NCBI GenBank assembly: GCA_963575745.1
Contig: CAUYUJ010009446.1
Coordinates: 462,498-526,497, forward strand
Direction: 5' to 3'
Source of the DNA: Prorocentrum cordatum
Taxonomy: Eukaryota; Sar; Dinophyceae; Prorocentrales; Prorocentraceae
Length of the DNA stretch: 64,000 nt
Part shown: positions 12,863 through 60,550 of the stretch, piece after piece
How positions within the stretch are numbered: the stretch's first letter is position 1
Layout of the letters: each line of letters starts with the position of its first letter
Translations under genes and position numbers: made by a program
Notes under the pieces: model-generated
What the model was told of the DNA's origin: nothing
What the model saw: only the letters and a program-made list of their open reading frames with translations
Databases searched by the model: none

Positions 12863-12867
12863 ACCTC
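12863..12867 (+). other. Target-site duplication, left copy
   Basis: ACCTC immediately precedes the 5' LTR and is repeated directly after the 3' LTR. The same string continues as ACCTCTTGGGCCG on the right, matching the host satellite, so the pre-insertion site can be read. Confidence 0.9.
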
Positions 12868-13125
12868 ACTTTAAGGGTAGCTCTTTGGGAGATGTTATAG
12901 TATCGGGAGCATAGCTCGCGCGCCGTTGCCTTGGGCTCAAGGCACGCGCGCCCTATTTGCTCGGACACCGCGAGTGTTCGCTATGTGCTGGAAAGACATC
13001 GATCTTATCCGATCTTATCCGTCCATTCCTCTTACTGAACCACGTCAGTACGAGACCGGACGCTATTTGCCATCCGATGTCTACGGAATCGGATGCTATT
13101 TGAGTTACCAGGCTCACTTTCGACT
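12868..13125 (+). repeat. 5' LTR (258 bp)
   Basis: It begins ACTTTAAGGG and ends TTTCGACT; the usual TG...CA ends are absent. A strong stem lies at about 12918-12953, where GCGCG/CGCGC arms enclose TGCCTTGGGCTCAAGGCA. An ATG at 12983 is in frame with gag, so translation could start in the LTR. Compared with the 3' LTR it lacks a 6-nt segment near 12993. Confidence 0.93.
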
Positions 13126-16100
13126 TGGTAGCGGAGCTGGCGGCACTCTCGTGTGGTCAGCTCTTGCTCTTCTTAGCCTCATACTCTTCGGCACGATCTT
13201 CGTGACCACCTACCACCCTGCGCTATCACTCCCAGTACGTTTACGAGGATCTATCCAAGAGCAAGAAGCGACACGAGAGGTACGACGTCTAGACAACGAT
13301 ATCGGTACCATATACGCTTCATCATTGCGCTATTACCAACCGCTCGGCAACGAGCCAAAAGCGCAATACCTGAAGCATGGGCGGAGAGATCCGCCAGATA
13401 GAGCGCCTCGAAGACTCGACAAGGCGCTACCCCAGCGCGGCAACGCGCCTAATAACCGTCCTTATCTACACAGCCTTGGGCTGGTTATCTTCGCTATCAT
13501 ATGTTTCGCGCTGGGGGCAGCAATCGGACACATGCGTCGTGGAGACAACAGCACCGATGGGCAAACACATGGCCCATATTGGGACCCTCAAGGCAACGTA
13601 CCTTTCCGCGAGTACGTTTATGAGGTCAACGCATGGCTCAACGTCACAAGCGGACGTATGACGCCACAGGCCCAAGCGGCCGCCATACAACGCGGCCTAG
13701 GTGGCCTAGCGAGGACACTCGCCATGAGGGTACCGCCTGACATCATAAATTATGGTGCTGACATCGATGGGGTCCACACCGACCCAGTGACCTACATCAT
13801 GTTCCTCTTAAGCATGAAGTTCGAGCGCCTAGAAGATGAGCGCCAGCTCACTTCCGGCACACAACTCATCGACTTCCACGTGCCTCACGGGGAACGAATC
13901 GATGTCACCCTTACCCGATTCGAAATGGCCCGACTTGAGGCACAGTCGGTGGGATTTGACTTTCCCAACTTCCAACTACTAACCACGATCCTGTTCCGCG
14001 CCTTAGGCGTCGGCAACCAGCGAGCCATGCAACTCTTACAGCCACTCAATCACCAAATGCCCCGAACACAACAACAGTATGATGAGTTACTGGAGAGGAT
14101 GCGTTCGATAGGTCACCTATCTGAACGGTCTCCTGGTAATATAGGATCTGTGTTTGGAAGGGGAAGGGGATCTGGTAGTGGAAATTTCTACACTACCTTG
14201 ACCACTGAAGCCCAGCCTGGGAACGGGCCCTCAAGCATATGGGCCGATGATCCTGGAGAATCCACTGCTCTACTAGCAGGAGATCGATCACAACCAAGCT
14301 GGGCAACCAGCCCTCCTTCTAGAGAACCACAACCACACCGTTCCTTATGGGGTGAATCAAACCCCCTCACCGACGGTGTATCCACCTACTTGGGAGACGA
14401 GGACTTCGACTCCGGCACCGACACAGATACTATATCATCAGACGGTGTTGAAGCTTTAGATTGGTCAGATATTATGAATATGGATAATGACAATCAGCGT
14501 GCTGAACATTTGTTCTGGTTATTACAACAGGCTAAACGGAGGTGGAGGAGGTTCACACGAAAACCAGTGCGTCGTGTTAGGAGGAGGATACGGAGGAGCT
14601 TCAAGGGAAAAGGTAAAGGTAAACGAGGTCGTCGGAGGTTGAACGGACGAGGCATCACGGCATTCCTCCAGAGGCTCTCAGATGAACAACATGATGAGAT
14701 ATTCTTTGGGGGAAAGGGCCGTGGCAAGGGCCGTAGAGAGACCTCAGGAAAAGGCAAGGGTAGGCGGGGAAACCCGCGAGGTAGAGACGGCCAGGTTCTT
14801 AAATGCCATGAGTGCGACAGTACCGACCATCTTGTGCGAGATTGTCCAGCGAAGGGAAATGGAAAGGGCAGGTCGACCGAAGTCCATTTTGGCTCAAGTG
14901 AACCATTCATCGAATATCTGAGCCTCCAGGATTTTGAGGCCATGGAACAGATATTTTACACTTGGGTCAGCTGTATGGACAACGTCGACGAACTCGAGGC
15001 GTATGGTCATGGATTGTACGCGTACTACCTCGAGTACGTCCGCCGGTTCGTTATTGGCAACAACGAGCTCACTCCCGTGGATCACGGTACGCTGGGAAAC
15101 CAGCCTCTTTCTTTCTTCGACTGGATGTTCGGAAACCCAGGTAACATCATGGCTTACGAAAGCAGTGACGAGGACATCACTGTGGAGGCCTCGCCTTCCG
15201 AGGTTGAACGCAACCTCCAACCTCCACCTGAACTCCCGCCTGGAAACAGGCCTACCTATCCCCAAACTAACGAAGAACTAATAGATATGGAATCTCAGGC
15301 GTTCGTTCAAGCTTTCATTGCAGGTGAACCAGAGATCCCATTTGTACCCCCTGGTTCGCTTGCCCCAGGCGAATATGGACCACGTACACTCCTGCGAACC
15401 CTCATGAGGATGCATGAGATACTTATCATCGCATATCCCGAGAGTCAAGAGAACATCGAAGCTGACATCATGATGCTGCAGGATACCGACGCCTGCGGTA
15501 GCTCGGAGTTGCTGTTGGCAGCTTTGACCCTCATTGACAGCGTGCATCCTGAGGACGTGCAGAGACACCTGATATACTCCCGCTGGAGATGGCGGAATGC
15601 TCTTGAAATGGCTATCGCCATGCGCAGTCATGATCTTCCTCCGCCAGGATGGGGTCTCCAGGCGGTGGGACTGTGGCCAAACCATACGGCCATGCGCAAC
15701 ATTGCCGGGCAGCCTGTGCTCGGCAACGAGCCTGAGCCGACAACCGCGCCGCCCACCCCGGGGCAGCCGAGCGACGCACAGACGCCGGCTATGCAGGGGA
15801 ACTTGCCTGCCCCAGCTGCGCCAATGGCCATCACTATTGGCAGTTCTACATCAGAAGAAGAAGAGGGCGATGGTTGCGGGCTAAGCGAGGACGAAGTCAC
15901 AATCCTCATGATGGAAGTCAACGGAGAGGTAGAGGTGGACTTTGATCCCGACGAGCCTGAAGTACCATCACCATCGGCACAAGCGCCATATGCGCCGAGC
16001 TCCAGCCAGCAGGGAAACCTGCCTCATGTGGCCGATCCACCTGTGATCGCACAAGAGCCTCCGCAGGCGCCTCCGCCGGTTACCACTCAGGCTGCTTCGG

Positions 16101-16648
16101 CAGCCTCTTCTGATGAGAATGCTGGAAGGTCTCGTTCCCATCCACGTGTCAGAGGAGAGCCACATCCACAGGCTCGGTTTCCTCGTGAGTGGAGGCAGGC
16201 TGGCCCGAAAGAACACGCCCTCAGGCGAGGAGGCCAGCTGCTTCCGCATAATGACCCAAGACGCCGAAAAGGGGAACACTCGGCCTTCGGCAAGGGCAAC
16301 CCTGCCTATAGGGGCGCTGAGGGTAAGGCTGTCCGCGGAGGCTATCAGCTTGCAACAAACGTCCGCCGCCCTGAAATTGAAGAAGTGCGGACCCAGCTGC
16401 GAAACATCATCGCGGCTCGCAAGCAGTATAGGCCTCAAGCAGCTTGCGGACCTTGTTCCGAGCCGTTCCAGAACCACAGGCCGGGATGCCCCGTTGGCAA
16501 CAATGAAGGTCTGAGCCCCAACAGGGGCAAAACCCCTCATAAAGAGGGACATCCGCCACTTGTCCCGATGACACCGGACGAGATCGCAGAAGTGAATCGT
16601 CGTCTCGGGATCCTGGGCCACTTGGATCCGAAAGAGGAAGAGGAGTAA
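12983..16648 (+). CDS. Gag-like polyprotein segment with CCHC zinc knuckle
   Basis: The open frame enters from the LTR (first in-frame ATG 12983) and ends at TAA 16646-16648. Two hydrophobic segments (about 13150-13203 and 13473-13524) precede a gag core at about 13590-14150. A Lys/Arg/Gly-rich stretch (about 14530-14790) leads into one CX2CX4HX4C knuckle (CHECDSTDHLVRDC, about 14804-14845), the RNA-binding motif of Copia nucleocapsid regions. The rest is an acidic or Pro-rich linker. Eleven canonical hairpins interrupt it as x-G-N-x-P pentapeptides. After the TAA the same frame stays open, so the stop may be a point mutation within a longer polyprotein. The start is uncertain; the hydrophobic segments are unusual for gag. 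Confidence 0.8.
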   Translation: MCWKDIDLIRSYPSIPLTEPRQYETGRYLPSDVYGIGCYLSYQAHFRLGSGAGGTLVWSALALLSLILFGTIFVTTYHPALSLPVRLRGSIQEQEATREVRRLDNDIGTIYASSLRYYQPLGNEPKAQYLKHGRRDPPDRAPRRLDKALPQRGNAPNNRPYLHSLGLVIFAIICFALGAAIGHMRRGDNSTDGQTHGPYWDPQGNVPFREYVYEVNAWLNVTSGRMTPQAQAAAIQRGLGGLARTLAMRVPPDIINYGADIDGVHTDPVTYIMFLLSMKFERLEDERQLTSGTQLIDFHVPHGERIDVTLTRFEMARLEAQSVGFDFPNFQLLTTILFRALGVGNQRAMQLLQPLNHQMPRTQQQYDELLERMRSIGHLSERSPGNIGSVFGRGRGSGSGNFYTTLTTEAQPGNGPSSIWADDPGESTALLAGDRSQPSWATSPPSREPQPHRSLWGESNPLTDGVSTYLGDEDFDSGTDTDTISSDGVEALDWSDIMNMDNDNQRAEHLFWLLQQAKRRWRRFTRKPVRRVRRRIRRSFKGKGKGKRGRRRLNGRGITAFLQRLSDEQHDEIFFGGKGRGKGRRETSGKGKGRRGNPRGRDGQVLKCHECDSTDHLVRDCPAKGNGKGRSTEVHFGSSEPFIEYLSLQDFEAMEQIFYTWVSCMDNVDELEAYGHGLYAYYLEYVRRFVIGNNELTPVDHGTLGNQPLSFFDWMFGNPGNIMAYESSDEDITVEASPSEVERNLQPPPELPPGNRPTYPQTNEELIDMESQAFVQAFIAGEPEIPFVPPGSLAPGEYGPRTLLRTLMRMHEILIIAYPESQENIEADIMMLQDTDACGSSELLLAALTLIDSVHPEDVQRHLIYSRWRWRNALEMAIAMRSHDLPPPGWGLQAVGLWPNHTAMRNIAGQPVLGNEPEPTTAPPTPGQPSDAQTPAMQGNLPAPAAPMAITIGSSTSEEEEGDGCGLSEDEVTILMMEVNGEVEVDFDPDEPEVPSPSAQAPYAPSSSQQGNLPHVADPPVIAQEPPQAPPPVTTQAASAASSDENAGRSRSHPRVRGEPHPQARFPREWRQAGPKEHALRRGGQLLPHNDPRRRKGEHSAFGKGNPAYRGAEGKAVRGGYQLATNVRRPEIEEVRTQLRNIIAARKQYRPQAACGPCSEPFQNHRPGCPVGNNEGLSPNRGKTPHKEGHPPLVPMTPDEIAEVNRRLGILGHLDPKEEEE
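13126..13137 (+). promoter_or_regulatory. Primer-binding site
   Basis: TGGTAGCGGAGC directly abuts the 5' LTR. It starts with TGG, complementary to the CCA end of a tRNA, as expected for priming of minus-strand DNA. It resembles the initiator-tRNA sites of many Copia elements, but the priming tRNA cannot be assigned here. Confidence 0.8.
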
Positions 16649-16681
16649 TCTACCCCGGTTCCAAGGGGAGGACTGGTGCCC

Positions 16682-18901
16682 ATGACCCAGGAAGAGAAAG
16701 ACGCGCTCCTTAGTTTTCCTGGTATGCGAGGAAACTCGCCCGGCGTTTCTAGTCAGTCCCAACAACCAGAACCGACATCCAAGGATGAACAGAAGGCCCA
16801 ACGTGTGGCGGAGGACGAGGAACGCATGAGGATAGCAGACGAACGCGCACGCGAGGCAACTCTCAAGATGTTGGAGGATTCCAAAAGGATTTACATGAAG
16901 GGGGCTAAGAACCCCCCGCTCCCACTACAATCGAAGGCTAAGAGTGAAACTCCAGCACCGAAGTCGTTTTCGGACGTGAGACCGAAAGCACGCTCTGAGG
17001 ATCCTGGGCCAGATGTGCAGATGGAGGCGCCTCGTTCTGAAACTCCGAGATCGCCTATTGGCGCAACTCCAGCACAAGTATCTGAGCCCAAGCAACAACC
17101 TCAGGACCCTGTGGAAGAACGGAGACGCCCGCCTAGTCGTAGCAGTTCCATTGCCAAGAAGGCGGCGGCTTTCGAGCGCACAGGGTATGCCCTTGCGCCA
17201 GCTTCGCCTGTGGCGGCCCGTTCCAAAAGGTCAGACGAAGGTGCTATGTCTAGAGGTAACTGGGTGCCGACGATTAGGAGTAGCGCCAGTCGCGGATCAC
17301 CGCGGGGAAACCCGCCAGGCGCTGCTGCTGCAGCTTCCTCCTCGTCAGGAGCCGCAGCCTCTTCAGCGACAGAGGCTCCTGCGCGGGGAAACCCGCCCGT
17401 GGATCAGCTGCACCACCCAGAGGACACGTCCTTCACCGGTGGGACTCCGAGTGTGATCAGGGATAGACTTGCTCTGCGGAAGCTCCCACCAATACGCTCG
17501 GTGGATGAGGCATTCATGAAGAAATGCAGGCAAGCTAACATCCTTCCTAGATCCAATCACACTCTCAAGCAGCTGAGTAAAGCTCTCAGCAGGATATGCA
17601 GACATGCGCCAGAAAAACCACACAATCCTGTGTGGTACCTGGACTCCTTCGATGATCATGATGGCTGGGTTAACCTCGTGGAGCTCGTGAAGGAGTATCC
17701 GTGGAACACAGGACAATCGAGACACGATGGGTATAATCCAAGATATGACGAGGCCAAAGTCATCAATGAGTACCTATATGCTCGCACGGTTGACCAACTG
17801 GCAGCCATGATGATGGAAGTTGCTCATGTCCGTGAACCAGACGGAGAAGAAAAACAGCGCCTTCAGTTCAAGGTGTTGATGCGGGACTCCGGTGAGCCCG
17901 ATATCTTCATCCGCGCCTCTCAGGGGCATTCATGGACATTGAAAGCTCCATGGTCGCTGTACAACTATATTGTACTGTGCGACCAACCTGCCGGGAGACC
18001 GGCCCCGTGCCCCGAAGTCGCCATGCATGGCACTCGGTGGCATGCCTTCGAAGGCATTATGTGGCACGGCTTGTCCTGTAGACCCGAGCACAACACGAAG
18101 AAACAGGGGACAGGCCGGTCGCACATCCACTTCGTGCCGACGGTCCGCCGTCGCGCCGTGAACAGTGGGTGGGACCCAGACTCAGACATCATCATCTTCG
18201 TAGATTGGCACAAGGCCATGCAAGATGGTATGAAGTTCTGTTGGTCTGATAACGGAGTCCTTTTGTCCGAGGGAAACAACGGCATCATCGAACCGTACTA
18301 CATTTCCCATGTGGAGGACCTGGCCACGGGGAAGCACTGGCACAATCCCGAATACATGGGGGACCGCCGGGCGCGAGTCCCCCCCGCCGTGCTGTCGGCC
18401 CCTGGCAGGTGGGCTGACGTTGGCAGTGCCAGCGTCAAACACCAGTGGTCCCGAGACCAAGAGGGCGTCGACCCTCCCATGGTCTACCTCCACAGGGAGG
18501 TTGGGGACCACTACAGTCCCGCCAGGCTGGGATACCAGCCTGAGGTCCACCAGATCTTCATGATCACCGAGAGTGAGGCCGGGAGCGCGGCTCCAAGCCG
18601 CGCCCCAAGCCAAGGGCCTAGTGCCGTGTCTTGGCAGGCCATCAGCACCTCGGACTTGGACCAGATAGCGGCCGCTCTGAACCCTGAACAGGTGGAGCAA
18701 CTGGCGGATAGGTTATATCAGCAGGACCCCTGGGCTGCAGGCCAGGGAGTAATGTCCGCCATGGCGACGCGAAATCGTCAGGCCATGCAGGGAAACCTGC
18801 CTATAAACGGACTCAGAGCTGAGATGCCTGAGCCGCGGGGAGACCCGCAGACGTTCGGCCGCATCTTTGGAGAGCCTGCTCGATTTGAGCAGGGGGCATG
18901 A
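16682..18901 (+). CDS. RNA 2'-phosphotransferase (Tpt1/KptA-like) segment of the retroelement polyprotein
   Basis: Tpt1/KptA enzymes use NAD+ to remove an internal 2'-phosphate left at RNA splice junctions by certain RNA ligases. About residues 280-560 (17530-18360) match this fold. The N-lobe has LSKALSRICRHAPEK (R-H at 17600-17605) and DDHDGWVNLVELV. The NAD lobe has IRASQGHSW (Arg at 17912), HGTRWHAFEGIMWHGLSC, GRSHIHFVP (Arg at 18116), then DIIIFVDWHKAMQDGMKF and DNGVLLSEGN. The Arg-His-Arg-Arg set that defines the active site is all present. The first 270 residues are a charged, Pro-rich linker with hairpins at 16726, 17302 and 17383. The frame is that of gag and it ends at TGA 18899-18901. 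I know of no Copia element described with this domain. Confidence 0.92.
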   Translation: MTQEEKDALLSFPGMRGNSPGVSSQSQQPEPTSKDEQKAQRVAEDEERMRIADERAREATLKMLEDSKRIYMKGAKNPPLPLQSKAKSETPAPKSFSDVRPKARSEDPGPDVQMEAPRSETPRSPIGATPAQVSEPKQQPQDPVEERRRPPSRSSSIAKKAAAFERTGYALAPASPVAARSKRSDEGAMSRGNWVPTIRSSASRGSPRGNPPGAAAAASSSSGAAASSATEAPARGNPPVDQLHHPEDTSFTGGTPSVIRDRLALRKLPPIRSVDEAFMKKCRQANILPRSNHTLKQLSKALSRICRHAPEKPHNPVWYLDSFDDHDGWVNLVELVKEYPWNTGQSRHDGYNPRYDEAKVINEYLYARTVDQLAAMMMEVAHVREPDGEEKQRLQFKVLMRDSGEPDIFIRASQGHSWTLKAPWSLYNYIVLCDQPAGRPAPCPEVAMHGTRWHAFEGIMWHGLSCRPEHNTKKQGTGRSHIHFVPTVRRRAVNSGWDPDSDIIIFVDWHKAMQDGMKFCWSDNGVLLSEGNNGIIEPYYISHVEDLATGKHWHNPEYMGDRRARVPPAVLSAPGRWADVGSASVKHQWSRDQEGVDPPMVYLHREVGDHYSPARLGYQPEVHQIFMITESEAGSAAPSRAPSQGPSAVSWQAISTSDLDQIAAALNPEQVEQLADRLYQQDPWAAGQGVMSAMATRNRQAMQGNLPINGLRAEMPEPRGDPQTFGRIFGEPARFEQGA

Positions 18902-18916
18902 CACACACCGAGGGGC

Positions 18917-19605
18917 ATGACTCCAATGGCTACACCACCTGCACAGTCTCCGTTCGGGACTCCTGGCCGCCCTGCCACAAACGGCACCCTCATGGAGAGG
19001 ATTGCTGCGGCTAGGGCTGAGCATGGCACAGCTCTCCTGAACATGATGCCGCCCGGCACTCCAACGAGTCAGCAGGGAAACCTGCCCGGCACCCCAAGCC
19101 ATCATCGGCCGTTTGCTGGACAAACCACAGTAGCTGGTGTGCCTGATGACTACCGTGCAAGAGTGGCGGCCGCTGTGCAGCAGGTGCAGAGCCATAATCT
19201 GCCTCACCCAAGTGGTCAGAGGTGGAGGCCGGCCTGGTCCTGGGAGCCTGAGGGTCCCAACCCAAGGGATCCTGCTCGGCAGCGAGCCTTCGTCCCAGCG
19301 TTCAATGCTCACCCGAGCATGGCCCAGGGCCAGAGGCCACCGCCAGCACACATGAATCCGCCATTGTACCCTGATGGGTCCAGAGTTCCGAACAAGTTTG
19401 TTCGCGAATTGGCGGATCAGCTTCACAGCCTCACTAACGTTCGCTGCAGTGACCAATCTATGTATCCTCACATGGCCTTTATGCCTTCACCGACGACGCC
19501 AGATGTTGCTGTCCAGCCCACTGCCCATTCGATATCGTCGGGCAGTAGGGGCGTTCCTGATTATATCAGGCAGACATACCACAGGCATGCTTCAGGCGAA
19601 GGCAG
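18917..19605 (+). pseudogene. Polyprotein linker between Tpt1 and RING segments
   Basis: The frame of gag and Tpt1 resumes with an ATG 16 nt after the TGA and reads Pro/Ala/Gly-rich sequence without a recognisable domain. The coding signal then moves to another frame near 19605. A hairpin encoding QGNLP lies at 19072. I read this as linker sequence of one original polyprotein. Confidence 0.55.
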
Positions 19606-19608
19606 GCC

Positions 19609-20276
19609 GTGCAGAGCGTACGAGATCATTCACGTGCAGCTGCACTTGAGGTTGCGAGAAACAGAGGCTCACCTTTGCGAGGAAACTCGCCCGCTGCGAC
19701 TCCTACCACCTCCGTGCCAAATGCCGGAGTGCCGGAGGTGCTGGATCCAATAGGGACTCCCCCAGCTGCCTTCATGCCCTCCGAGACGGTATTGGAGAGA
19801 CAGCGACGGGTATATCCCAGAGCAGCAGATGTAGAGGTTTTCACTGGGATGGAAGATACCTGCGCGGTATGCCTCGAAGAATTTCAGCCCAGGGAAAGTG
19901 TTTACCGTTTAAGGTGTAATCACGTGTTCCATGAGGGGTGCTGGAATTCAAACGTGGTGGGCCATGTCACAAATCAGCGCGAGGGAGATCCTCAGCAGCC
20001 ACCGTGTGCTATCTGCCGAGCACCTGGCATCATAGCGTCATCGTTCCCGCGGACCGGCTCCTTCATTCAGACTCCTGAGCAAGCAGCGAGGGAGCTGCGG
20101 GAGTTGAGGAGCATGGTGGAGGAGATGACGGCCAGGATGCTAGATAGGCAGACAGCTCAGCCCCAACAGCAGGGAAACCTGCCAGAGGAGGTGAGGCCGC
20201 CTATGGAGACGGGATACTTCGATCAGCTCATCCCGATGACGGCGCCTCAGCAGGGAAACCTGCCAATACTCCTCAG
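19609..20276 (+). CDS. RING-H2 finger segment of the retroelement polyprotein
   Basis: RING-H2 fingers bind two zinc ions and usually recruit E2 enzymes for ubiquitin transfer. Here CAVC (19861-19872), CNHVFHEGC (about 19915-19941) and CAIC (about 20003-20014) give the C-C-C-H-H-C-C-C order with a long loop before the last pair, following FTGMEDT. A short helical segment (EQAARELRELRSMVEEMTAR) follows, then two hairpins encoding QGNLP at 20169 and 20250. The frame differs from that of Tpt1 and changes again near 20276, so the segment was probably part of a single polyprotein now frameshifted. Ubiquitin-ligase activity is inferred from the motif only. Confidence 0.85.
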
Positions 20277-21767
20277 ATGTCTCCCCAGAGTGGGGGTGGG
20301 ACTGAGATGGCACTGGACCCTGACCAGCTGCGTGAGTTGCGTGTTCGGCACTTCCAGAATCAGATGGATAATGCGCACACAACATTTATGCTGGATGCCG
20401 ACAATCCTGAGACTGATAGTCCGTCGTTTGACATATCAGACCCCTCAGTGGCAACAGCAGCAACGGCAGCCAGGGCCGTCAATATCACAGCGACGAACGA
20501 GGAGTTCGAGGAGTGGCTGCAATACAGGGATCACCTCACGAATGAGGGGCTGCAGGATATTGCCCTTCACTCGTATCTGACGCTGATGAGACGCACGACC
20601 CGCGAGCAGTATAAGAGCATACGTGACGAGTATGCCAACTGGCGGGAGGAGCGCGGCGATCACGTCCAGCACGTGTCGTACTTCCAGTACATCGACCTGG
20701 TGCGTATGGCCGAAGGCAGGCCGTATGCCAGCGTCATGCGGGGCAACCCGCCAGGGAGTGCGACCGACTCGCGGGGAAACCCGCCTGAAGGCACAGCCGA
20801 CACTTCAGAAACTGTGCACATCAAGCAGCCGAGTAAGACGTTCCTGGACGATGGTGGAAATTCCATCCTCATCGATGTAGGCTCGAAGATCAACATCATG
20901 GGCGAGAACACGAGCCGCAAGTTCGTCCAGGCTGCTGAGTCACACGGCCGTACTTGTACATTCGAGCCCCGCTCTCGTTTGAATATCAACGGAGTGGGAG
21001 AAGGGTCGGCCCCAGCGGATACCGTAGGCACATTCAGTATTGCCTGCGAGTACCAGGGGTCGACCCAGCTCGATTCATATAAGACGAACATTGTGTCAGG
21101 CTGTGGTAAAGATCTGCCAGCCATCCTAGGCCTCGATAGTATGCAGGACAAACGCACGATCATCGTGCTTGAACGAGGCCAGGAGAAGCTGATATTCCCT
21201 GGAAAGGGGCAGGTCAAAATGGAGCTCCCCGAGGGCTCCAAGATCATGCCGACGACGAAGTTGCCGTCAGGGCATCTGTCGATCAGGTGTGATCGTTTTG
21301 GAGCTGCGGGGCAACCCGCCTCGAGCTCAAGCAGCACGTCATTCCAGACGGTGCTGACGGGCGAGCCGACCCCGGCGCAGGAGCGCGAGCAATTGCAGGG
21401 AAACCTGCCTCAGGGGTTGATGGAGACGCTCGCCAAGGCCACTATGCGAGGCGACAACATCGACGATCTTGAATCGTTCGATTGCTTCGTTGCCAGGACA
21501 CTGGCCCAGCATGGTGGAAGTGTACCCATGGACGCTGCACGGTCCCGCCGGAAGATAGTAATGGGGTACACTAACCGTGAGCTGCAGACGGTCAGCGACG
21601 CTAGGTCCAAAGGCGTGCTGAAACAGCTGATGGATAATCCATCCATGCTGACAACATTTGCGGAGCAATCCGCCTCTGAGGCCACAGCGCGCTGCAGCGC
21701 TGAGCTACAGCATCTGAGGGGAGCCCAGATGCTGGCAGACATTGCAGGCACATCTTCTTTATCTTGA
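20277..21767 (+). CDS. Aspartic protease-like segment of the retroelement polyprotein
   Basis: After a hydrophilic N-terminal part, residues about 185-330 form a retropepsin-like domain. ILIDVGSKINIMG (about 20867-20905) sits where the catalytic D-S/T-G loop is expected, here D-V-G, followed by hydrophobic strands and a second conserved stretch DLPAILGLDSM. Such proteases cleave the Gag-Pol polyprotein. The Val in the triad is atypical and could mean loss of activity. Seven hairpins lie in this segment or at its edge (20738, 20771, 21306, 21395, 21660 and, after the stop, 21838 and 21865). The frame ends at TGA 21765-21767 but continues open beyond it. Confidence 0.7.
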   Translation: MSPQSGGGTEMALDPDQLRELRVRHFQNQMDNAHTTFMLDADNPETDSPSFDISDPSVATAATAARAVNITATNEEFEEWLQYRDHLTNEGLQDIALHSYLTLMRRTTREQYKSIRDEYANWREERGDHVQHVSYFQYIDLVRMAEGRPYASVMRGNPPGSATDSRGNPPEGTADTSETVHIKQPSKTFLDDGGNSILIDVGSKINIMGENTSRKFVQAAESHGRTCTFEPRSRLNINGVGEGSAPADTVGTFSIACEYQGSTQLDSYKTNIVSGCGKDLPAILGLDSMQDKRTIIVLERGQEKLIFPGKGQVKMELPEGSKIMPTTKLPSGHLSIRCDRFGAAGQPASSSSSTSFQTVLTGEPTPAQEREQLQGNLPQGLMETLAKATMRGDNIDDLESFDCFVARTLAQHGGSVPMDAARSRRKIVMGYTNRELQTVSDARSKGVLKQLMDNPSMLTTFAEQSASEATARCSAELQHLRGAQMLADIAGTSSLS

Positions 21768-23010
21768 AGATGGCAGGGCGACGTCGCCCCCTCGTCGTCT
21801 TGCCTGTTGGCCGAAAAGCCAGGGGGTAACAAGGACAGCGGGGTAACCTGCCTTAGTAAAGACAGCGGGGTAACCTGCCTTAGTAAGAGGGCTTTTGTCA
21901 TTGAAGATACGAGAGAGGCTTGCGCCGACCTCCGCACCCGAGGTTATATCTGTGATCGCATTTCCCACAATGAGCTTATGACAAGCGTGGGCACATATTA
22001 CCTGGGTGCGGTGATCAGTGGAGATTTTTCACTCTCATATGGATTAGTACCCCGGGTGACTGGTATGTACGAACTCCAGGAAAGAGAGTGGCCCCACATT
22101 GGTCACGTATCCAGAACCTGTTGATAAAAGCCAAGAAACTCCGTATGAAGATCATTATATTTGGTCCCCCAGGATATGTTTGGAAGTTATCTCCAGTACG
22201 TGATACTCTGGAAGATCTTAAATTGTCAGTAATACGGATGCGTCTGTGTCATTTCGGTATTCGGTGCAATATGCAAGACAGTACACCGAGTGGTACTTAT
22301 ATGCAGGTAGCGTCATCAATACCGATTAGCTCGAAGCTGTGGGCATGTACATGCAAACAGGCAATACCACAACATGTGTTGGATTGGTACGGGCATTCAG
22401 TACGGCATGCTGAATGGCGAGCCCAGACACGTACTACACTCATCCGTCACCTTAACGACAACATCCTGGGAAGCACCACTACGCACGGAAACGTGCCTGT
22501 ATATTCAAACACATATACACGTACGGACCATAACATCCATCACTACGTAACGACCAACAAGGGAGGACCGAAATGGTCTGATGTTATCCGACGTGTAACG
22601 ATTAACCTGGATACCAATGCGGTTATTCAGGATATCTCAGTTACCGATCAACCAACAGGGTATGATTGGCATGCACCACTACCTGCAGGGGTTGTCAACA
22701 TCAGCACTCGGTTATATTGGCAACCCGAGGAACCGGTCTTGCTCGGAAACGAGCCTACTCAATCACCACAGAAACTTCGACGCGTCATCATAGATGACTG
22801 TTCTCTCCCCCTCCCGACTCTGGCGATTGACGCATGTACCCACTCAACCACGACAATGGGCACACAGACCGGCGAACAAGATGAGCAAGTTTTACCCACA
22901 GAATCGCGTATCAAGCAGAAGGAAAGGCTCAAAGCCGAAAAGGAAGCAGGCATCAAGCCTCGCCGCATTAAAAGCACGTTGAAGACGGAAACGATGATTG
23001 CGGCGACGAC
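21768..23010 (+). pseudogene. Conserved-looking polyprotein block of unassigned function
   Basis: The protease frame continues past its TGA to 22124; the signal then shifts to another frame (22088-23071), starting where a segment reading KMKIIIFGPPGYVWKL-like sequence begins. It contains RMRLCHFGIRCNMQD, PSGTYMQVASS and several Cys/His positions, and a basic C-terminal part (22900-22980). I do not recognise the family; the Cys/His pattern could bind metal. Tandem 27-bp units at 21833-21886 each carry one GTAA-loop hairpin. Hairpins at 22483 and 22741 encode HGNVP and LGNEP. Confidence 0.5.
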
Positions 23011-23745
23011 TTGTCAGGACTCGGACAGGATCTTATGGCAACCTGGAGTACTGACGTCCCTATTGAGCTGATAAGCTCCGATGAGGACGATGACCTGTTC
23101 CTTACCCTCCCCACATCTATCCCCGACGCACGCGCTAACATATACAGCATAGTTGCTACACTATGCTATGGTCATAACAACTGCGTGGATATGTTGGAGC
23201 TTTGTGGCGGCGAAGGTGGTATCTCAGAGCTTGCCTTCTCAAGGGGGCTCTCCTCAGGAGGCAACCTAGACAAGACTACATATGTCGACCTGGGAGACCC
23301 CTCGGTGCAGCGGGTTATAGACCACTACTTCGCTATATGCTACGTACGAGTTGCCATACTACAACCCAGTTGCCGCACCACAGGACCACCATCCTACTAC
23401 AACTACAAAGTCAATTACAACACTTGGGAACAGCACCACACATAAGATTTACCACACATAACTTATTGTGGTAAAATTGCTGTAACCCAAGATGACGCTC
23501 TGAGGTGGTTTATACGCGAACAACCTACAGGAACATGGGTGGATGATATTTCCCCATGGAAGAAACTTGCCAACCGACCACACATTACAACCGTACGCAT
23601 TGATCAATGTGCTACGGGACTCAAAGATACGGCTGGTGACTATTTTAAGAAGCCGACAAGTATCACCAGCAACGACGAGACAATTCTTAAACCCTTTGAG
23701 CGACTCAAATGCAACGGTTAGCATGTGCACGCACAACCAAAAGTT
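23011..23745 (+). pseudogene. SAM-dependent methyltransferase-like domain, broken
   Basis: VDMLELCGGEGGISELAFSR resembles motif I of class I, C5-cytosine-type methyltransferases (SAM loop). It is followed by TYVDLGDPSVQRVIDHYF and AILQPSCRTTG in the place of the catalytic P-C motif. A TAA at 23443 interrupts the frame; the same frame then continues with a related C-terminal part (TYCGKIAVTQ, VRIDQCATGLKD, KKPTSITSN) to a TAG at 23719. Cytosine methyltransferases carried by dinoflagellate retrotransposons have been reported in the literature, which fits. The domain is probably inactive in this copy because of the stop and frame change. The exact class is uncertain. Confidence 0.6.
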
Positions 23746-25660
23746 TTCACTGGCACAAAAAGACACTCGACGACTGCAGTCTGCCTTCGTGGAAGCCGTC
23801 TATCTGGCGAAAGCCATTGACACTACGCGCGGAAACGCGCCTATAAGTACCGCACATGCTTACCCTGCAGACCTTCCCGATCAAGCTGAACCAGGCGAAG
23901 GTATGAGACGCATCGGTGATCGTATCATCCCAAAGGTGGCCACTTGCCCGGCATGCATCGACAACGTCCGAAAGGACAGTCCTAGCCATAACAGAGACCC
24001 TACGCAGTGTAAATATCATGATTCCATCTCTGTATATTGGCCATGTCCCGCATGCCAGAGGGATCTTACGAGAAGCAAGGGTGTTAAGAACCACCTCGCT
24101 ACCGAACCTGGTAAATGTCGTTTTGCTGAACCATTTAAACTTCCAGACGATCGCGACCCCGAAGGCAAAACCGTGCCAGCTTGGTGGAAACCCTTACCTA
24201 AACCTGGTGAGGGCCAAGCTTCAGCTTCAGGTGGCCGCCAAGGCGCACACGCCAGGCCACCACGACCACGATCCTTCGGTAACGTCGATCCGACATCTGG
24301 TGCCAGCAGTTACGACATGCTACGAGACGCCCCCGAGCGTGGAAACACGCCTTCCGCGTCCTCTAGCGAAGCGCCACAGGTAGCGGCCCGCCGCGGCCGC
24401 CTACAAGGCGTACCACCACCTCCAGATGCAGTCAATGCAGGGGACCAACTACGGAGGGCTACAAGGAACCCTCTTGCCTCTACCGGCTCTGGGGCTCCAC
24501 GACTACCCGACTGGACGAGATTCGACATCCAACACAGTCTACAAAGTCTCCGTAGTCACGAACCTCATGTCGTGAAAAAGGAACTCCGAAAACTGCATCT
24601 GCGATGGTATTATGCGAAGGAACCTAAGATGAGGCTAATCCTCGACAAAGTGGGGCTGGATAACGTTCGACTGAACATGATCAAGGAAGTTTGCGACACC
24701 TGTCGGGAATGCAGAGCATGGGAACGTCCAGGAAACTCAACATTACCCTCGGTGAGCCTTCCCGGTAACTGGCTCGACGAAGGCGAAATGGACCTCATGT
24801 TCTACAAGAAACGGACCATATTTCACATTATGGATCGTTGTATTCGCCTGGCAGCAGGCCTAGAAATTTCCGACAGAGAACGTGACGCTATCCTTGACGC
24901 CTACCACTACTGCTGGATTGCCTATCACGGACCCTTCAAAGTCTTATACTCAGACGGAGAAGGCGCCCTGAACAATGATGCCGCTAAAGCCATGATGGCC
25001 AATAAGGGCACGGAACTTCGTATCCGAGCACTTGGCCAACACGCGACTTCAATTGAGTCACGAAACGGCATTCTCAGAGGCGTCCTCCACATGATTGAGG
25101 AAGGACTGAATAGACACAACATCCCCGTTGTATTCACTAGAGTATTGGCGGAAGGCATCTTCGTTACTAATGCTTTTACGTTTTATAACGGAGTATCGCC
25201 ATGCCAAGCACACAGGACGTCAGCCCTCCATTCTCCCTGATCTCGACACCCTTGACTTTCCCAAGGGACCCGAGACTTCAGGACACGAACGAGAACGTCG
25301 TGTGAGGAAAGTCAGCCTAGAAGCCATAACTCAGGCCACTGCTGTGGCCAAGACAAATCGGGCTCTTAGGGCTAAAACGACTCCTGATGGTGCTCGCCTT
25401 TACTCTGCAGGGGATTTGGTCGATTACCACCGACCCACTGCCACTAAGGACGATCATGGAGGCTGGAATGGCCCATTCCCGGTGATCCGCAATGTGCCTG
25501 AAAGAGGACATATTGTTGTCAAGGCTGGATCTCGTGAGGTAGTTGTGATGTATCCTGATGCTCGTCACACACTGTACATTGAATGTCTCCTCACACGAGA
25601 ACTTGGCATGGATAATATGGCCGTGCAAGCCGTCCTTACATATGTGGCACACCTCGGTGC
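23746..25660 (+). CDS. Integrase segment (zinc-binding, catalytic core, C-terminal), frameshifted
   Basis: A Cys-rich module (CPACIDNVRK ... CPACQRDLTR, about 23945-24080) and a Pro-rich linker precede the integrase. The His/Cys region (LHLRWYYAKEPK ... CDTCRECRAW) is followed by the core. The first Asp is in GEMDLMFYKK (about 24781-24810), the second in VLYSDGEGAL (24953), and Glu in SIESRNGILR (25055), 33 residues after the second Asp. Integrase inserts the cDNA into chromosomes and makes the 5-bp duplication seen here. Near 25210 the signal moves to the next frame, which continues through a C-terminal module (YSAGDLVDYHRP, GWNGPFPVI). A single-base indel is the simplest explanation. Hairpins at 23827 and 24337 lie in linkers; none lies in the core. 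Confidence 0.85.
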
Positions 25661-26567
25661 GGGGAAACCTGCCAAAGTTTTCGGCTATATCCCCGATTAC
25701 AAGGGAAATCTCAATCTTTCAGACGACAGCAAGTTTCACCCGCGCGTACATTTAGCACTACAGTATCTCGTGCGGAACTACTTCCGAGTAGAACATGTAG
25801 TAGCAGTTAGATTGGCCAAAGGTGTGTCAAGCCTTCCTGCAGTAAAGTACGCCACCGGGTCTACGCTGATCCACTATGACAACGATATCAGCCCGGCTTT
25901 CCACTACTACGAGTGTGTGGGCACCGGCCTAAACATTTCTCAGATCACTGGTAGCACTCATTCCAGACTTATTCAATGCTTGATTTCACGTGTCCCCTCC
26001 TTAGGATTTCACGACGACTTGGCAAAATATCAGCACTCAAGCAATACGTCTGGAGAACACGATTCGCTTGGAAACAGGCCTCTTCCAGACACCCCAGGTG
26101 CTTCATCGCCGAGTGAAGGCCGTCTGTCGACAATCTATGAGGAAAATGAGGAACATAATATCGAAGCTATGATGCTGGAAGAGTGGTACGACGAGCTACG
26201 TATGGACCTTCATCCTACGACGACTACCGACGATTATCTCTACTGCGTCCCAACAACCATGCTGCCCGACCAATGTGTTTTGGTTTCAGCATCTGTGGAC
26301 GGAGAAGATATCGTATCATCGGACATGCTCGGAGACGAGCCTGAACCACGAGAGCCCTGTCTAGTCTCTCTCTGCTCAACCACACCTGACGAGAGCTACT
26401 CTCTTGACAGTGATGAACATGGTCCTTACGTTGAGTTATGTTTTACATCAGAAATGTCAAAAGTAGTGTTGGATCAGACCCAACTTGTACAGCTCGACAC
26501 CGATATGGTCGCAGCGATGAGAGTTTATGTATCCTCTGCTGCTAAACGTGCTGTGGTTGTTAAATAA
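25661..26567 (+). CDS. Acidic linker between integrase and reverse transcriptase
   Basis: The frame set after 25210 continues through acidic sequence without a recognised domain to TAA 26565-26567. Hairpins at 25659 (AGKPA phase), 26066 (LGNRP) and 26327 (LGDEP) lie here. Because the reverse transcriptase continues in the same frame directly after the TAA, this stop looks like a mutation inside the polyprotein. Confidence 0.6.
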
Positions 26568-27587
26568 GATGATCTACTGACCAAAGCCGACATAGCAGCA
26601 CATCCAAAGGAGGTTAGTGAAGCTTTGTATACTGAACTCAAAATCTGGATTGATAACCGATGCTTTGAGATGTACGATTTATCCAAAGCTTCCAACATCA
26701 TGACATCCAGGTATGTATACAAGTGGAAGTTTGTAAAGGTGGGTACCGAGAACGTTAAAACCATTCGTCTCAGACTTGTTCTTCGCGGATTTATGGATAC
26801 TGAGGCTTTTTATGTGGAAACATTCTCGGGGACCGCCCGAAGGCAATCCCAACGACTCCTGGCAAGTGAGGCGGCATGCCATCCAGAGTGGACTTTAGCA
26901 TCCATGGATCTCGACAAGGCGTTCCTCAAGGGTTTGACCTATGAGGAACTTGCCCATGCCACCGGCGAGGAAACTCGCATGGTCTGCTTCACTCTTCCAC
27001 CGGGAAGCGCCCAGGTACTTCGTACACTACCCGGCTTTTCATCTTATGACGAAAGCCGACACTGCCTCAGATGCCTCAAACCAGGAACGGGTACAAAGGA
27101 CGCTCCAAGAGCGTTCTCTCTCAAACTTCGTACGACCACACGAGCTATAGGCCTTACACCGACCAGCTATGATCCTGAATTTGAATTCAGCCAAGATCTG
27201 CTAACGGCAAAACATGTCGATGATATTAACATGACAGGCCTGGAGAAAAATATAGACGACTATGTACAGCGTGTCGAAAAGGTGTTTGGTAAATGCAAGC
27301 TCAACAAACACACATATACGAACTGCGCCGTTCGCTACACTAAGAATGATCAAGGGGATGTGATCATGGATCAGGACGAGTATATCAAACAACTACGTCC
27401 TATCACACACCCAGAACTTACAGGAGCGGCGGCCGATGCCAAAGCCACGAAACTCATTACCGACATGTTCGTCAGCTTGCGAGGAGCCCTCGCCTATGCC
27501 CTCCTTACCCAAATCTGGCTCATGGTATACGTGGTCTCTCTCGCCAGAAAATTCAAGAGCCCACCAATCTGCAAGTCAGACGTCTGA
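26568..27587 (+). CDS. Copia-type reverse transcriptase (RVT_2) segment
   Basis: The enzyme copies the element RNA into cDNA. Visible landmarks are SRYVYKWKFVKV, IRLRLVLRGFMD, SMDLDKAFLKG (first catalytic Asp, about 26901-26933), CLKPGTGTKDAPRAFS, and KHVDDINMTG (the Y/V-DD active-site pair, about 27211-27240). The downstream thumb region follows. The 5' border is the in-frame TAA at 26565; the signal moves to another frame at about 27550, where the RNase H part begins. One hairpin (26965) falls inside the fingers/palm region and in a different reading phase (GEETR). Confidence 0.9.
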   Translation, partial: DDLLTKADIAAHPKEVSEALYTELKIWIDNRCFEMYDLSKASNIMTSRYVYKWKFVKVGTENVKTIRLRLVLRGFMDTEAFYVETFSGTARRQSQRLLASEAACHPEWTLASMDLDKAFLKGLTYEELAHATGEETRMVCFTLPPGSAQVLRTLPGFSSYDESRHCLRCLKPGTGTKDAPRAFSLKLRTTTRAIGLTPTSYDPEFEFSQDLLTAKHVDDINMTGLEKNIDDYVQRVEKVFGKCKLNKHTYTNCAVRYTKNDQGDVIMDQDEYIKQLRPITHPELTGAAADAKATKLITDMFVSLRGALAYALLTQIWLMVYVVSLARKFKSPPICKSDV

Positions 27588-28291
27588 ATGCTGTGGCGCG
27601 AAAGCTGATCAGCAGCCCGAAACGCATCACCTTCCCTCGGATGAAGCCGACGAATGAAGTTGACATCCACAGCGATTCGGGGTATCGGAAGCTTACCGGG
27701 GAGGAGGATGATGAGACCAAGGGCTACGGCATACGCGGGGCTAATGTACTACGGCGAGGAAACTCGCCTCAAGGCAAGTCCGTCGTTCACCTCTGTGACG
27801 GACTATGCAAATCACACCGACTGCAGGTGAGGTCCAGCTATGCTGCGGAGGCACTCGCAGCTGCGCATAACCTCGATGAGTGTTACCCTACGCTCATCAC
27901 TCTCCACGAGCTTAAGGCAGGAGCTCTGACTCCACGACAACTACGAGATATGCGTGAAGTTGGAGGCCTAGCTATCAAAGTCTCTCTTACCATAGACGCC
28001 GAGTCCGTTTATAAATCATTATCAAGCAGGGATCTTAAGATACCGACAGAACGGACTCTGCTTGGACATATCAGTTGGATACGTGAGCTCATGGATATAG
28101 GTATAGTACATAACGTGCAGTGGTGTGATACTAGGGATATGACCGCAGACGGGCATACAAAGGGAAGCATCGATCGGGAGCTGCTTCTGGAAGTGATGTC
28201 AGGCACTCAGTCATTCAAGTATGACGTGAAGCAGTTTGTTCCTTTTCGGGGTCCCGAGGACAGAAACAAACCCAAATCTAATCAATTTTAG
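27588..28291 (+). CDS. RNase H segment of the Copia polyprotein
   Basis: Copia RNase H degrades the RNA strand of RNA-DNA hybrids. The frame starts in QVRRLNAVARKL, typical of the RT-RNase H connection. VDIHSDSGYRK gives the first Asp, SYAAEALAA the Glu, TIDAESVYKSL the next Asp and RDMTADGHTKGS the last. The frame ends at a stop 28289-28291, the natural end of the polyprotein. The hairpin at 27754 (RGNSP) is an insertion between the first Asp and the Glu. Confidence 0.88.
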
Positions 28292-28673
28292 TCTGTCCTT
28301 GTTGCCCCCCCGCGGTCCAATTTGCCAGCATGGGCGCCTACTACAGAGGCGCCCTTCTAGTTGCTCGGAAACGAGCCTTACATTTCACGCCTGGCAACGA
28401 GCCGGCTTTATATGACTCAGGCTCTTTGCCTTAATACTTATTTGCTCGGTGAGGTATGGCCCGTTTGGCTTACCTCTAACTGAGCCGATAGCCCTCCATC
28501 CTTCGAAGGGGCTATCTTGTATTTGCGTGAAATGCCTTGCGAGGAAACTCGCTTTACAGTCTGGTGTTAGGCCAGACTGTACACACTGTTTTCTCTCTTG
28601 CAAACAGTTGTGCGCGCGGCCTTTGTAAAGCCTGACGGCTGCGCGGCTATGCTCTCCGTCTCCTCCCCTCCCG
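28292..28673 (+). promoter_or_regulatory. Structured 3' non-coding region of the element
   Basis: Between RNase H and the 3' LTR there is no reading frame, but there are many perfect stems. GGGCGCC/GGCGCCC lies at 28332-28354. A long stem, GCTCGGT..GAGGTA with TACCTC..ACTGAGC, spans 28444-28485. GATAGCCC/GGGCTATC lies at 28487-28516 and CAGTCTGG/CCAGACTG at 28557-28579. GNRA hairpins occur at 28363 and 28539, and an imperfect one at 28389. Where a purine-rich tract is expected before the LTR, the + strand is pyrimidine-rich (about 28651-28673). Confidence 0.75.
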
Positions 28674-28937
28674 ACTTTAAGGGTAGCTCTTTGGGAGATG
28701 TTATAGTATCGGGAGCATAGCTCGCGCGCCGTTGCCTTGGGCTCAAGGCACGCGCGCCCTATTTGCCCGGACACCGCGAGTGTTCGCTATGTGCTGGAAA
28801 GACCGATACATCGATCTTATCCTATCTTATCCGTCCATTCCTCTTACTGAACCACGTCAGTACGAGACCGGACGCTATTTGCCATCCGATGTCTACGGAA
28901 TCGGATGCTATTTGAGTTTCCAGGCTCACTTTCGACT
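28674..28937 (+). repeat. 3' LTR (264 bp)
   Basis: Identical to the 5' LTR except for three substitutions and a 6-nt insertion near 28799. It has the same GC-rich stem (about 28724-28759) and the same ACTTT...CGACT ends, and is followed directly by the right ACCTC duplication. Confidence 0.93.
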
Positions 28938-28942
28938 ACCTC
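28938..28942 (+). other. Target-site duplication, right copy
   Basis: ACCTC directly after the 3' LTR, matching 12863-12867. Confidence 0.9.
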
Positions 28943-29180
28943 TTGGGCCGTCGTTGGACCATATTGGAGGCTTTTTGGGCGATCTTAGGGACCTCTTGGG
29001 CCGACTTGGGCCATCGGACGGTAAGTTTGAAGCGAATGCCAGAAATCTTTTTCAACCTCAGGGATATCACCGATTTTGGCCTCTTGGGGCCTTCCTGGAG
29101 GACCTTTTAGAGGCTTCTTGGGCCGTCTGTGGGGCTCTTGGGCGCTTCTTGGGCCGTCTTGGACTCTCTTGGACCATCTG
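28943..29180 (+). repeat. CTTGGGCC-family satellite, continuation of block B
   Basis: The host satellite interrupted by the LTR element resumes here. It contains a core at about 29018-29085 (AGAAATCTTTTTCAACC, ATCACCGATTTTGGCC) related to those of the other blocks. Confidence 0.8.
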
Positions 29181-49290: not shown

Positions 49291-49354
49291 AAAATTTCGG
49301 AGACGTCAGTTCACGATATGCCCCCTCTCCTCCTCTCCTCTCCCTTTCTCTCTA

Positions 49355-60528: not shown

Positions 60529-60550
60529 TCCGTAGCCATTTTGGCTCAAG
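60529..60550 (+). other. Genomic copy of the dinoflagellate spliced leader
   Basis: All 22 positions fit the published leader (T then CCGTAGCCATTTTGGCTC and the final AAG). An ATG follows directly, and the LINE coding region starts 98 nt downstream. Its presence shows that the inserted RNA was trans-spliced at its 5' end. Confidence 0.95.

Follow-up and report, generated by a model that had tools for sequence, protein, structure and literature searches.

We analysed a 64-kb window (the whole stretch of DNA under study) from contig CAUYUJ010009446.1 of the dinoflagellate Prorocentrum cordatum and found that it contains a 16-kb copia-type long terminal repeat (LTR) retrotransposon at 12868-28937, coding strand +, whose interior carries an array of small hairpins with GNRA tetraloops. 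The element has direct LTRs (258 bp at the 5' end, 264 bp at the 3' end) with a short target-site duplication, and an RVT_2 reverse transcriptase with an integrase region upstream, as copia-type elements do (Table 1). We named the integrase region partly from motifs that we take to be those of an integrase, and partly from one metagenomic relative, P0012, which matches rve weakly (E 0.026). The Gag frame encodes a long basic stretch, read from its translation, and a CCHC zinc knuckle whose Pfam score is under the cut-off; its predicted structure (mean pLDDT 58.4) found its best Protein Data Bank matches in the Drosophila copia and Ty1 capsids, at a weak, low-confidence E of at least 0.69. Because its reading frames are interrupted, the window copy is presumably dead.

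The strict hairpin pattern GCNNGGNRACNNGC had 39 matches in the window, all on the + strand, of which 38 fell within 13342-28552; the 39th, at 32163, lies outside the element and its arms do not pair. Within the element none was antisense, and neither strand of the 48 kb of window flank contained a strict copy with paired arms. In 100 dinucleotide shuffles of the window the mean was 2.17 matches and the maximum 8. A first-pass annotation of this DNA had reported 36 copies; the array was borne out, and the count is corrected to 38. Both free stem positions are paired in 37/38 strict matches in the element (pair three is Watson-Crick in 33/38 and G-U in 4/38, pair four Watson-Crick in 35/38 and G-U in 3/38, and both are Watson-Crick in 31/38). 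The 5' dinucleotides number 11, in keeping with the ten or more annotated, and the statement that the other arm always follows holds for every match except 28389, which has a C-A mismatch. Admitting A-U closing pairs gave 39 paired hairpins in the element. The loops were GAAA, GCAA, GAGA, GGAA and GTAA, exactly as annotated.

Covariation analysis revealed that the free positions change together. In an alignment of 38 rows (32 distinct), 99.4% of cells pair, compared to 78.1% in shuffles, and the covariation score was 0.534 compared to 0.095 (0/500 shuffles as high); when the partner columns were slid by 1-3 the score was at most 0.113. With the loop left unspecified, we found 48 GC-clamped hairpins of 5 bp and 4 nt on the element's + strand, of which 39 were GNRA; five further ones have a loop one base from GNRA with stem and trailing C intact, and GC-clamped hairpins with 3-, 5-, 6- or 7-nt loops showed no comparable excess on that strand. 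The trailing C is present in 35/39 window-copy hairpins, and T is the next base in 23/39. The hairpins are distributed along the internal sense RNA, both within and beyond long open reading frames (ORFs), and in local folds (+-100 nt) 30/39 form at P>0.5. Domain stretches, whose bounds we set from Pfam and alignments, hold 2/39 hairpins compared to 7.65 expected (binomial P 0.011). The integrase core is indeed avoided, as the first-pass annotation stated, whereas the Tpt1 domain is not, since 17990 lies inside its Pfam envelope; 26965 lies in RVT_2.

One explanation to be weighed at this point is that the hairpins are the DNA of a Gly-Asn-x-Pro protein motif or an artefact of composition. Its support is that 26/27 G[ND]xP motifs of the element are hairpin-coded. 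The reading phase is also biased: among 32 single-frame hairpins, 26 are in phase 2, four in phase 0 and two in phase 1 (binomial 3.5e-8), with three more in overlapping ORFs and four outside long ORFs, and phase 2 reads mostly X-Gly-Asn/Asp-Y-Pro. This one-phase dominance could be accounted for by inheritance through in-frame duplication, or by linkers that tolerate Gly-Asn-x-Pro. However, 1000 synonymous-codon shuffles that kept the protein yielded a mean of 2.4 and a maximum of 8 hairpins, compared to 35 in the real coding parts, and a protein motif is therefore excluded as the cause. One hairpin design recurs in three reading phases and outside ORFs, the residues that flank Gly-Asn vary as complementary codons demand, and the covariation at 25659, described below, is confined to synonymous positions. 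We regard this explanation as refuted and give it practically no chance. Codon choice at the hairpins is distinctive as well: GGA supplies the free loop base in 19/26 phase-2 hairpins, compared to 95/338 among the other Gly codons of the element, and the next Pro codon is CCT in 16/24 compared to 96/349 elsewhere in the element.

We then have the evidence of close copies. Searching the assembly (4.13 Gb, 21,875 contigs) for the LTR produced 1854 candidates. The 40 that were scored were all at least 95% identical, and two were the window's own. Nine further copies with paired LTRs are 94.5-96.7% identical to the window copy (the one on C514 compared minus 539 bases), and each carries 35-39 paired strict hairpins and no strict antisense match. 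At 15793, 18526, 19274, 25659 and 26066 the window copy departs from a Watson-Crick or GNRA state held by 8-9 of the nine; because the intact state is common among them, the oddities of the window copy are mostly private decay. The exceptions are 19274, where the loop change occurs in one other copy, and 21492, where loop GACA is the common state.

Over the ten copies there are 43 hairpin sites. Variants present in at least two copies were found at 4/528 constrained hairpin positions compared to 279/5673 GC-matched positions, a 6.5-fold depletion (odds ratio 0.15, P 3e-7), and at 3/41 free loop positions; the count omits the positions at 18835, which lack data in two copies, and some selection bias remains in these depletion figures, as sites were picked by pattern in at least one copy. 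Three of the four shared variants are in loops (16009, 19274, 21492), and the fourth, a stem position at 21838, is the alignment edge of a 27-bp duplication. Outside the duplication, no shared variant alters a stem. Private variants were less depleted (25/528 hairpin compared to 508/5673 GC-matched positions).

Four genome places were chosen solely for hairpin matches, among the first 100 matches listed. Two proved to be diverged sister elements, and the other two (L203 and L204) are non-element sequence with the seed only. Sister C1 (L201 and L199) has identities of 79% in the reverse transcriptase, 48-54% in the integrase and 44% in Gag; sister C2 (L202 and L200) has 47-62% and 35-47% in the first two, with 11 sense hairpins and no antisense ones. 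Most window hairpins have no counterpart in C1 or C2; the comparison of sister elements that the first-pass annotation proposed showed stem covariation at two orthologous sites. The hairpin at 25659 lies between conserved flanks (LGAGKPAKVFGY / LPAGKPAMTFGY / LPAGRPAMTLDY), and for its third pair the window family has A-U (8/9 copies), C1 has G-C and C2 has G-U; the change from A-U to G-C is synonymous on both arms (Ala GCA/GCG, Pro CCT/CCC). In the hairpin at 27754 (VLRRGNSPQGKSVVHL / LLRRGNTPSGRPVVHL), A-U is the fourth pair of the window family and U-A that of C2 (L200). A third candidate compensatory site is 24337 against L200:2501, for which orthology is less sure.

Further evidence comes from 21 protein relatives (P0001-P0021) encoded on metagenomic contigs, whose DNA is inferred via residues only. 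A paired stem in phase 2 permits Gln-Leu, His-Val/Met and Arg-Ser/Pro/Thr/Ala around Gly-Asn/Asp, and likewise Leu-Gln/Lys/Glu, Pro-Arg/Trp/Gly and the G-U cases. We found that 20/29 G[ND]xP motifs in these proteins were stem-compatible, compared to 11.0 by permutation (0/20,000 as high) and 7.6% by composition, a test that overstates independence because of the near-duplicates P0003/P0007, P0016/P0017 and P0019/P0020. The nine non-compliant motifs are MGNLP, AGDAP (twice), AGDEP, PGDTP, GGDDP, DGDQP, DGDRP and VGNRP, and two compliant cases (PGNGP in P0019 and P0020, in the protease core) probably comply by chance. At aligned sites the residues shift in step: Arg-Ser to Arg-Ala at 19677, Gln-Leu to Arg-Thr and Arg-Ala at 20169, and Gln-Leu to His-Val at 21395, where EGSVP in P0016 and P0017 is a loss. 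In an integrase tree a supported branch (100/99) separates the six rows labelled hairpin-bearing from P0011, P0012 and P0014, which have no motif; P0006 is nearest to the window, yet its one linker has no motif.

Taken together, the compensatory changes in sisters, the absence of shared stem variants outside the duplication and the covariation projected through the genetic code support the conclusion that selection on RNA structure maintains the hairpins, one of the two possibilities that the first-pass annotation had raised. That the constraint acts at the nucleotide level is, in our judgement, very highly probable.

Table 1. Features of the retrotransposon and its hairpin sites (window coordinates)
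Feature	Position	Strand	Remarks
5' LTR	12868..13125	+	255/264 aligned columns identical to 28674-28937
3' LTR	28674..28937	+	vs 5' LTR: 3 substitutions, one 6-bp indel
Target-site duplication ACCTC, left	12863..12867	.	read from LTR flanks
Target-site duplication ACCTC, right	28938..28942	.	read from LTR flanks
Primer-binding-site-like TGGTAGCGGAGC	13126..13137	+	immediately 3' of 5' LTR
Gag ORF: capsid-like region, basic stretch, CCHC knuckle	12881..16645	+	open frame starts within LTR
ORF with Tpt1/KptA domain	16649..18898	+	PF01885 E 1.2e-25
ORF with RING finger	19561..20577	+	PF17123 E 1.4e-9
Protease-like ORF	20148..21764	+	relatives P0016-P0021; no Pfam match; protease role inferred from position and sequence
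Integrase region	23504..25237	+	relatives P0003-P0015; region itself without Pfam match
Reverse transcriptase	26568..27584	+	PF07727 RVT_2 E 5.9e-10
GCTCG-GCAA-CGAGC	13342..13355	+	strict match, paired, also in copies
GCGGA-GAGA-TCCGC	13381..13394	+	found with A-U closing pair admitted, also in copies
GCGCG-GCAA-CGCGC	13435..13448	+	strict match, paired
Loop variant GACA	13709..13722	+	loop-free hairpin scan
GCCTG-GGAA-CGGGC	14215..14228	+	strict match, paired
GCTGG-GCAA-CCAGC	14298..14311	+	strict match, paired
GCGGG-GAAA-CCCGC, without trailing C	14764..14777	+	strict match, in conserved Gag motif
Hairpin	15091..15104	+	strict match, paired
Hairpin	15238..15251	+	strict match, paired
Hairpin	15718..15731	+	strict match, paired
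Hairpin with G-U	15793..15806	+	nine other copies have GCAGGGAAACCTGC
Hairpin	16009..16022	+	strict match, paired
Hairpin	16726..16739	+	strict match, paired
Site broken by one base in window copy	16851..16864	+	whole in nine other copies
Hairpin	17302..17315	+	strict match, paired
Hairpin	17383..17396	+	strict match, paired
Hairpin within Tpt1 envelope	17990..18003	+	strict match; Pfam bounds
Hairpin, loop GATA	18526..18539	+	GAAA in nine other copies
Hairpin	18787..18800	+	strict match, paired
Hairpin	18835..18848	+	strict match, paired
Hairpin	19072..19085	+	strict match, paired
Hairpin, loop GCAG	19274..19287	+	GCAG also in one other copy; GCAA in 8/9 others
Hairpin	19677..19690	+	P0018 at same place: R-G-N-A-P
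Hairpin	20169..20182	+	relatives: R-G-N-T-P (P0018), R-G-D-A-P (P0016)
Hairpin	20250..20263	+	strict match, paired
Hairpin	20738..20751	+	strict match, paired
Hairpin	20771..20784	+	R-G-D-T-P nearby in P0016/P0017 (gapped alignment)
Hairpin in other phase, AGQPA	21306..21319	+	P0018 AGKPA
Hairpin, QGNLP	21395..21408	+	aligned: P0018 HGNVP; P0016/P0017 EGSVP (lost)
Hairpin, loop GACA	21492..21505	+	GACA in 6/9 other copies, GAAA in two
Hairpin, A-U closing pair	21660..21673	+	wider pattern, copies
Hairpin in 27-bp tandem duplication	21838..21851	+	duplication in 2/10 copies
GCGGG-GTAA-CCTGC, second duplication unit	21865..21878	+	strict match
Hairpin	22483..22496	+	strict match, paired
Hairpin	22741..22754	+	strict match, paired
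Hairpin	23827..23840	+	strict match, paired
GCGTG-GAAA-CACGC	24337..24350	+	likely counterparts in relatives
Loop variant GCAG	24846..24859	+	loop-free scan, copies
Hairpin	25659..25672	+	8/9 copies GCAGGGAAACCTGC; L199 GCGGGGAAACCCGC; L200 GCGGGGAGACCTGC
Hairpin with U-G	26066..26079	+	8/9 other copies have GCCTGGAAACAGGC
Hairpin	26327..26340	+	strict match, paired
Hairpin within RVT_2, without trailing C	26965..26978	+	strict match
GCGAG-GAAA-CTCGC	27754..27767	+	L200 GCGTG-GAAA-CACGC, flanks conserved
Hairpin, outside long ORFs	28363..28376	+	strict match, paired
Pattern match, C-A mismatch	28389..28402	+	strict pattern, arms unpaired at one position
Hairpin, outside long ORFs, without trailing C	28539..28552	+	strict match, paired

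Searches beyond the family gave no comparable array. Rfam had no match at gathering score in 12868-28942, and no description of such hairpins in a retrotransposon was seen in the literature searched, in agreement with the first-pass remark that no such family had been described. Arrays in viruses were sought with three hairpin patterns and rejected, as none of the 161 viral-contig stretches recovered was an array; the 162 loci (1.39 Mb, L001 included) held only six hairpins beyond the seeds, at most two per strand of any locus. Protein scans of viral contigs gave no relatives. Locus L001 (PKDW01000065.1), a contig from a metagenome-assembled genome of Flavobacteriales, encodes in its last ~500 bases a piece of such an integrase, with no hairpins, and for this reason looks chimeric. 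Non-element genome stretches (L163-L170, L203 and L204; ~40 kb, a tiny sample) had no paired hairpin beyond the seed hits. Matches to GCNNGGNRACNNGCC, with pairing disregarded, numbered 54,474 + 54,115 genome-wide compared to 16,045 + 15,977 in the reversed control, a count inflated in part by satellite; a satellite-like array of GCCAGGCGACGTGCC and variants, which contributes to this, occupies ~1.467-1.506 Mb of contig C2. Helix 45 of small-subunit ribosomal RNA, which we take to resemble one stem variant, was dropped as an identity since the hairpin stem varies. The first-pass annotation had the hairpins confined to one retrotransposon; as sampled, they belong instead to one family of copia-type elements and to sister elements of that family.

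Other features of the element and its surroundings were also observed. A Tpt1/KptA RNA 2'-phosphotransferase domain sits in an ORF of this LTR retrotransposon (16649-18898), with a RING finger further downstream; judging by titles and the opening lines of abstracts, a literature search on KptA and retrotransposons returned nothing on such a pairing. The segment 22972-23442 has no Pfam match, presumably resembles a methyltransferase motif, and has relatives encoded in L199 and L200 and, by eye, in P0010. A polypurine tract is not present directly before 28674 (the search did not extend elsewhere), and the bases there are pyrimidine-rich (CTCCTCCCCTCCCG); this pyrimidine-rich stretch, 28650-28673, adjoins the 3' LTR in place of the expected tract. 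Flanking and surrounding the insertion site are degenerate repeats of 10-11 bp, built around CTTGGGCCGT and present on both strands (3850-4420, 10188-11478, 11984-12860 and 28937-29163). Two exact 21-nt dinoflagellate spliced leaders lie on the + strand at 39537-39557 and 60530-60550, and agree with the form given in the part of PMC12014239 that concerns it. The second looks like part of a retrogene because it directly adjoins the ATG of ORF 60551-62827, which matches Exo_endo_phos (E 3e-10). At 48478-49351, tandem 33-bp repeats overlap an open frame with an apolipoprotein-like match under the curated cut-off.

The fixed clamp and loop, the two free pairs, the single strand and the spread over the whole interior look like many copies of one recognition site, and the evidence suggests a hitherto undescribed set of docking sites, for protein or RNA, that repeat along the element RNA. 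The design is a 5-bp stem with fixed G-C and C-G pairs, a near-fixed closing G-C, two free pairs and a GNRA loop, in the window family usually followed by C-U, with about 40 such hairpins along the sense RNA. The free middle pairs may be spacer only, the partner recognising clamp, closing pair and loop. The likeliest partner would be an RNA-binding part of the element's own Gag, a candidate that we prefer because of the analogy with dispersed packaging signals and Ty1 packaging hairpins; many dispersed sites could let Gag select, condense and package the 16-kb genomic RNA. Point changes and local duplication may create new sites, chiefly where coding sequence for loose linkers tolerates Gly-Asn/Asp-x-Pro. 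By this analogy, and in view of the sites along the internal RNA, the capsid-like Gag, the basic stretch and the sub-threshold zinc knuckle, we tentatively favour Gag-read packaging or condensation sites as the best explanation. With greater reserve, we suggest that a retrotransposon clade may have an RNA code not known before, in which the uniform GNRA hairpins (~40 per element) are a recognised scaffold along the genomic RNA with an element-encoded reader; compensatory evolution would keep it over a great many copies in the 4-Gb genome and over diverged sister families.

Several observations weigh against these interpretations. Sister C1 holds only four sense hairpins, together with two antisense matches to the wider pattern (L199 ~938-966, within the element). 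The trailing C occurs in 2/4 C1 and 2/11 C2 hairpins compared to 35/39 in the window copy, and because it is rare in the sisters, the 3' C-U characterises the family of the window element. In C2, 8/11 hairpins have a G-U third pair and 5/11 are the identical GCGGGGCAACCTGC, a pattern more suggestive of copying than of free drift; such repeats mean that copying as well as drift shapes the hairpin set. Four of the identical hairpins, with the G-U pair and T for the trailing C, are found on the sense strand of L202 at 567, 6019, 6631 and 7165, and are either a subfamily variant or the result of recent copying. Regular spacing was rejected, as the coefficient of variation, 0.77, is within the range of random placement (median 0.95, 5th percentile 0.75), and ordinary control hairpins form as readily (12/13) in the +-100-nt folds. 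Private mutations break single arms, presumably after insertion; independent arm mutation, which the first-pass annotation named as grounds for refutation, was seen only in this class. The Gag relative P0001 is similar in its basic stretch and CCHC, but its 726 aa contain no G[ND]xP, and that type of Gag therefore does not need the hairpins. P0011, P0012, P0014 and P0006 show none in the stretch sampled, and the clustering of hairpin labels on the integrase tree was not significant (57/500 shuffles as low).

The hairpin-free Gag relative also fits a different reader, namely a host factor acting in export, stability, translation, localisation or silencing escape, or another element protein such as that of the Tpt1-domain ORF, for which the hairpins would be cis-acting sites. 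The RNA-level evidence (covariation, shared-variant depletion, sisters) fits this equally well, as do sites both inside coding RNA and outside ORFs. However, dense arrays are limited to certain lineages within the element family, and no host-gene users were found among the ~40 kb of non-element stretches, tiny as that sample is; we consider such a reader unlikely, if worth keeping in view. An RNA partner was considered too. GNRA loops could dock with receptors, either within their own element RNA or in a second one, giving compaction or dimerisation without protein, as the strict loops and fixed G-C/C-G clamp pairs would allow and as the Ty1 RNA, whose loop-loop contacts serve dimerisation and packaging according to passages of PMC5454406, might suggest. 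A search confined to the 11-nt receptor (TATGG with CCTAAG at most 60 nt away) found none in the element, and we think tertiary docking improbable.

The remaining explanations attribute the complementarity to the way the DNA is copied. The second first-pass possibility, a selfish palindromic 15-16-mer that copies within the element at the RNA or cDNA level and drifts, with complementarity as a by-product, is right to the extent that copying occurs: the 27-bp tandem duplication (21838/21865) is present in 2/10 copies, close pairs exist (e.g. 17302/17383 and 20738/20771), L202 repeats its identical hairpins among the five in C2, hairpin number differs widely among sisters, and 26/32 single-frame hairpins share a reading phase. 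It is not the best reading, since strict copies are all on one strand in the window element and nine copies, the 48-kb flank has no paired one, shared stem variants are absent outside the duplication, and 14764, where Gag reads RRGNPRGRDG and its relatives RRKNPRGRDG or ARKNPRGRNG, differs by substitution and not by insertion. It is weakened further by the both-arm changes within conserved flanks at 27754 and 25659. A mobile palindrome accounts for turnover but not for strand bias or covariation, and as the main cause it is distinctly unlikely. Neutral quasi-palindrome correction, in which reverse-transcriptase template switching carries a mutation over from one arm into its partner, would be expected to yield covarying arms in a reverse-transcribing element, but it would not keep closing pair, outer G-C and C-G pairs and GNRA class constant with just two pairs free, it would not give the loop one strand orientation, and most private mutations in the copies remain single-armed. 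We judge it very improbable.

If dispersed docking sites are the correct interpretation, the reader and the packing of a long LTR-retrotransposon RNA become directly testable with a 15-nt bait, and evolution itself has supplied the compensatory-mutation experiment. The hairpins may also help to trace sister elements, as two of the four hairpin-picked places did. To our knowledge, this would be the densest and most uniform conserved RNA stem-loop array in any retroelement.

Short repeated palindromes are familiar from Rickettsia palindromic elements, REPs and organelle GC clusters, some within coding sequence, and mobile palindromic repeats spread genome-wide in both orientations. The hairpins described here differ in having one orientation (0/38 strict antisense in the window element, 0 in nine copies), in belonging to one element family and its sisters, and in showing compensatory change at fixed sites. 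Lambda boxB has a five-bp stem and a GNRA-like loop and is bound by the arginine-rich N peptide; the likeness is one of resemblance only, and the basic stretch of Gag is likewise present in a relative without the motif. Retroviral Gag-binding loops lie near the 5' end and number one or a few, not dozens. The MMTV purine loop, as outlined in part of PMC8096270, is a purine-rich Gag contact and shares with our hairpins a purine-rich loop in genomic RNA. In Ty1, also a copia-type element, excerpts of PMC5454406 place cis-acting hairpins used for packaging and dimerisation within a 5' region of 380 nt; those are distinct hairpins near the 5' end, whereas in the present element a single hairpin design is repeated all along the interior. 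The closest parallel is with MS2 and the hepatitis B pregenomic RNA, in which, in the relevant part of Twarock et al. 2018 (PMC6281560), dispersed packaging stem-loops vary around a common recognition motif. In both cases many stem-loops with a shared motif lie along one genomic RNA, and here too the structure is conserved by selection; the present hairpins are more uniform, number about 40 per 16 kb and occur in a copia-type LTR retrotransposon.

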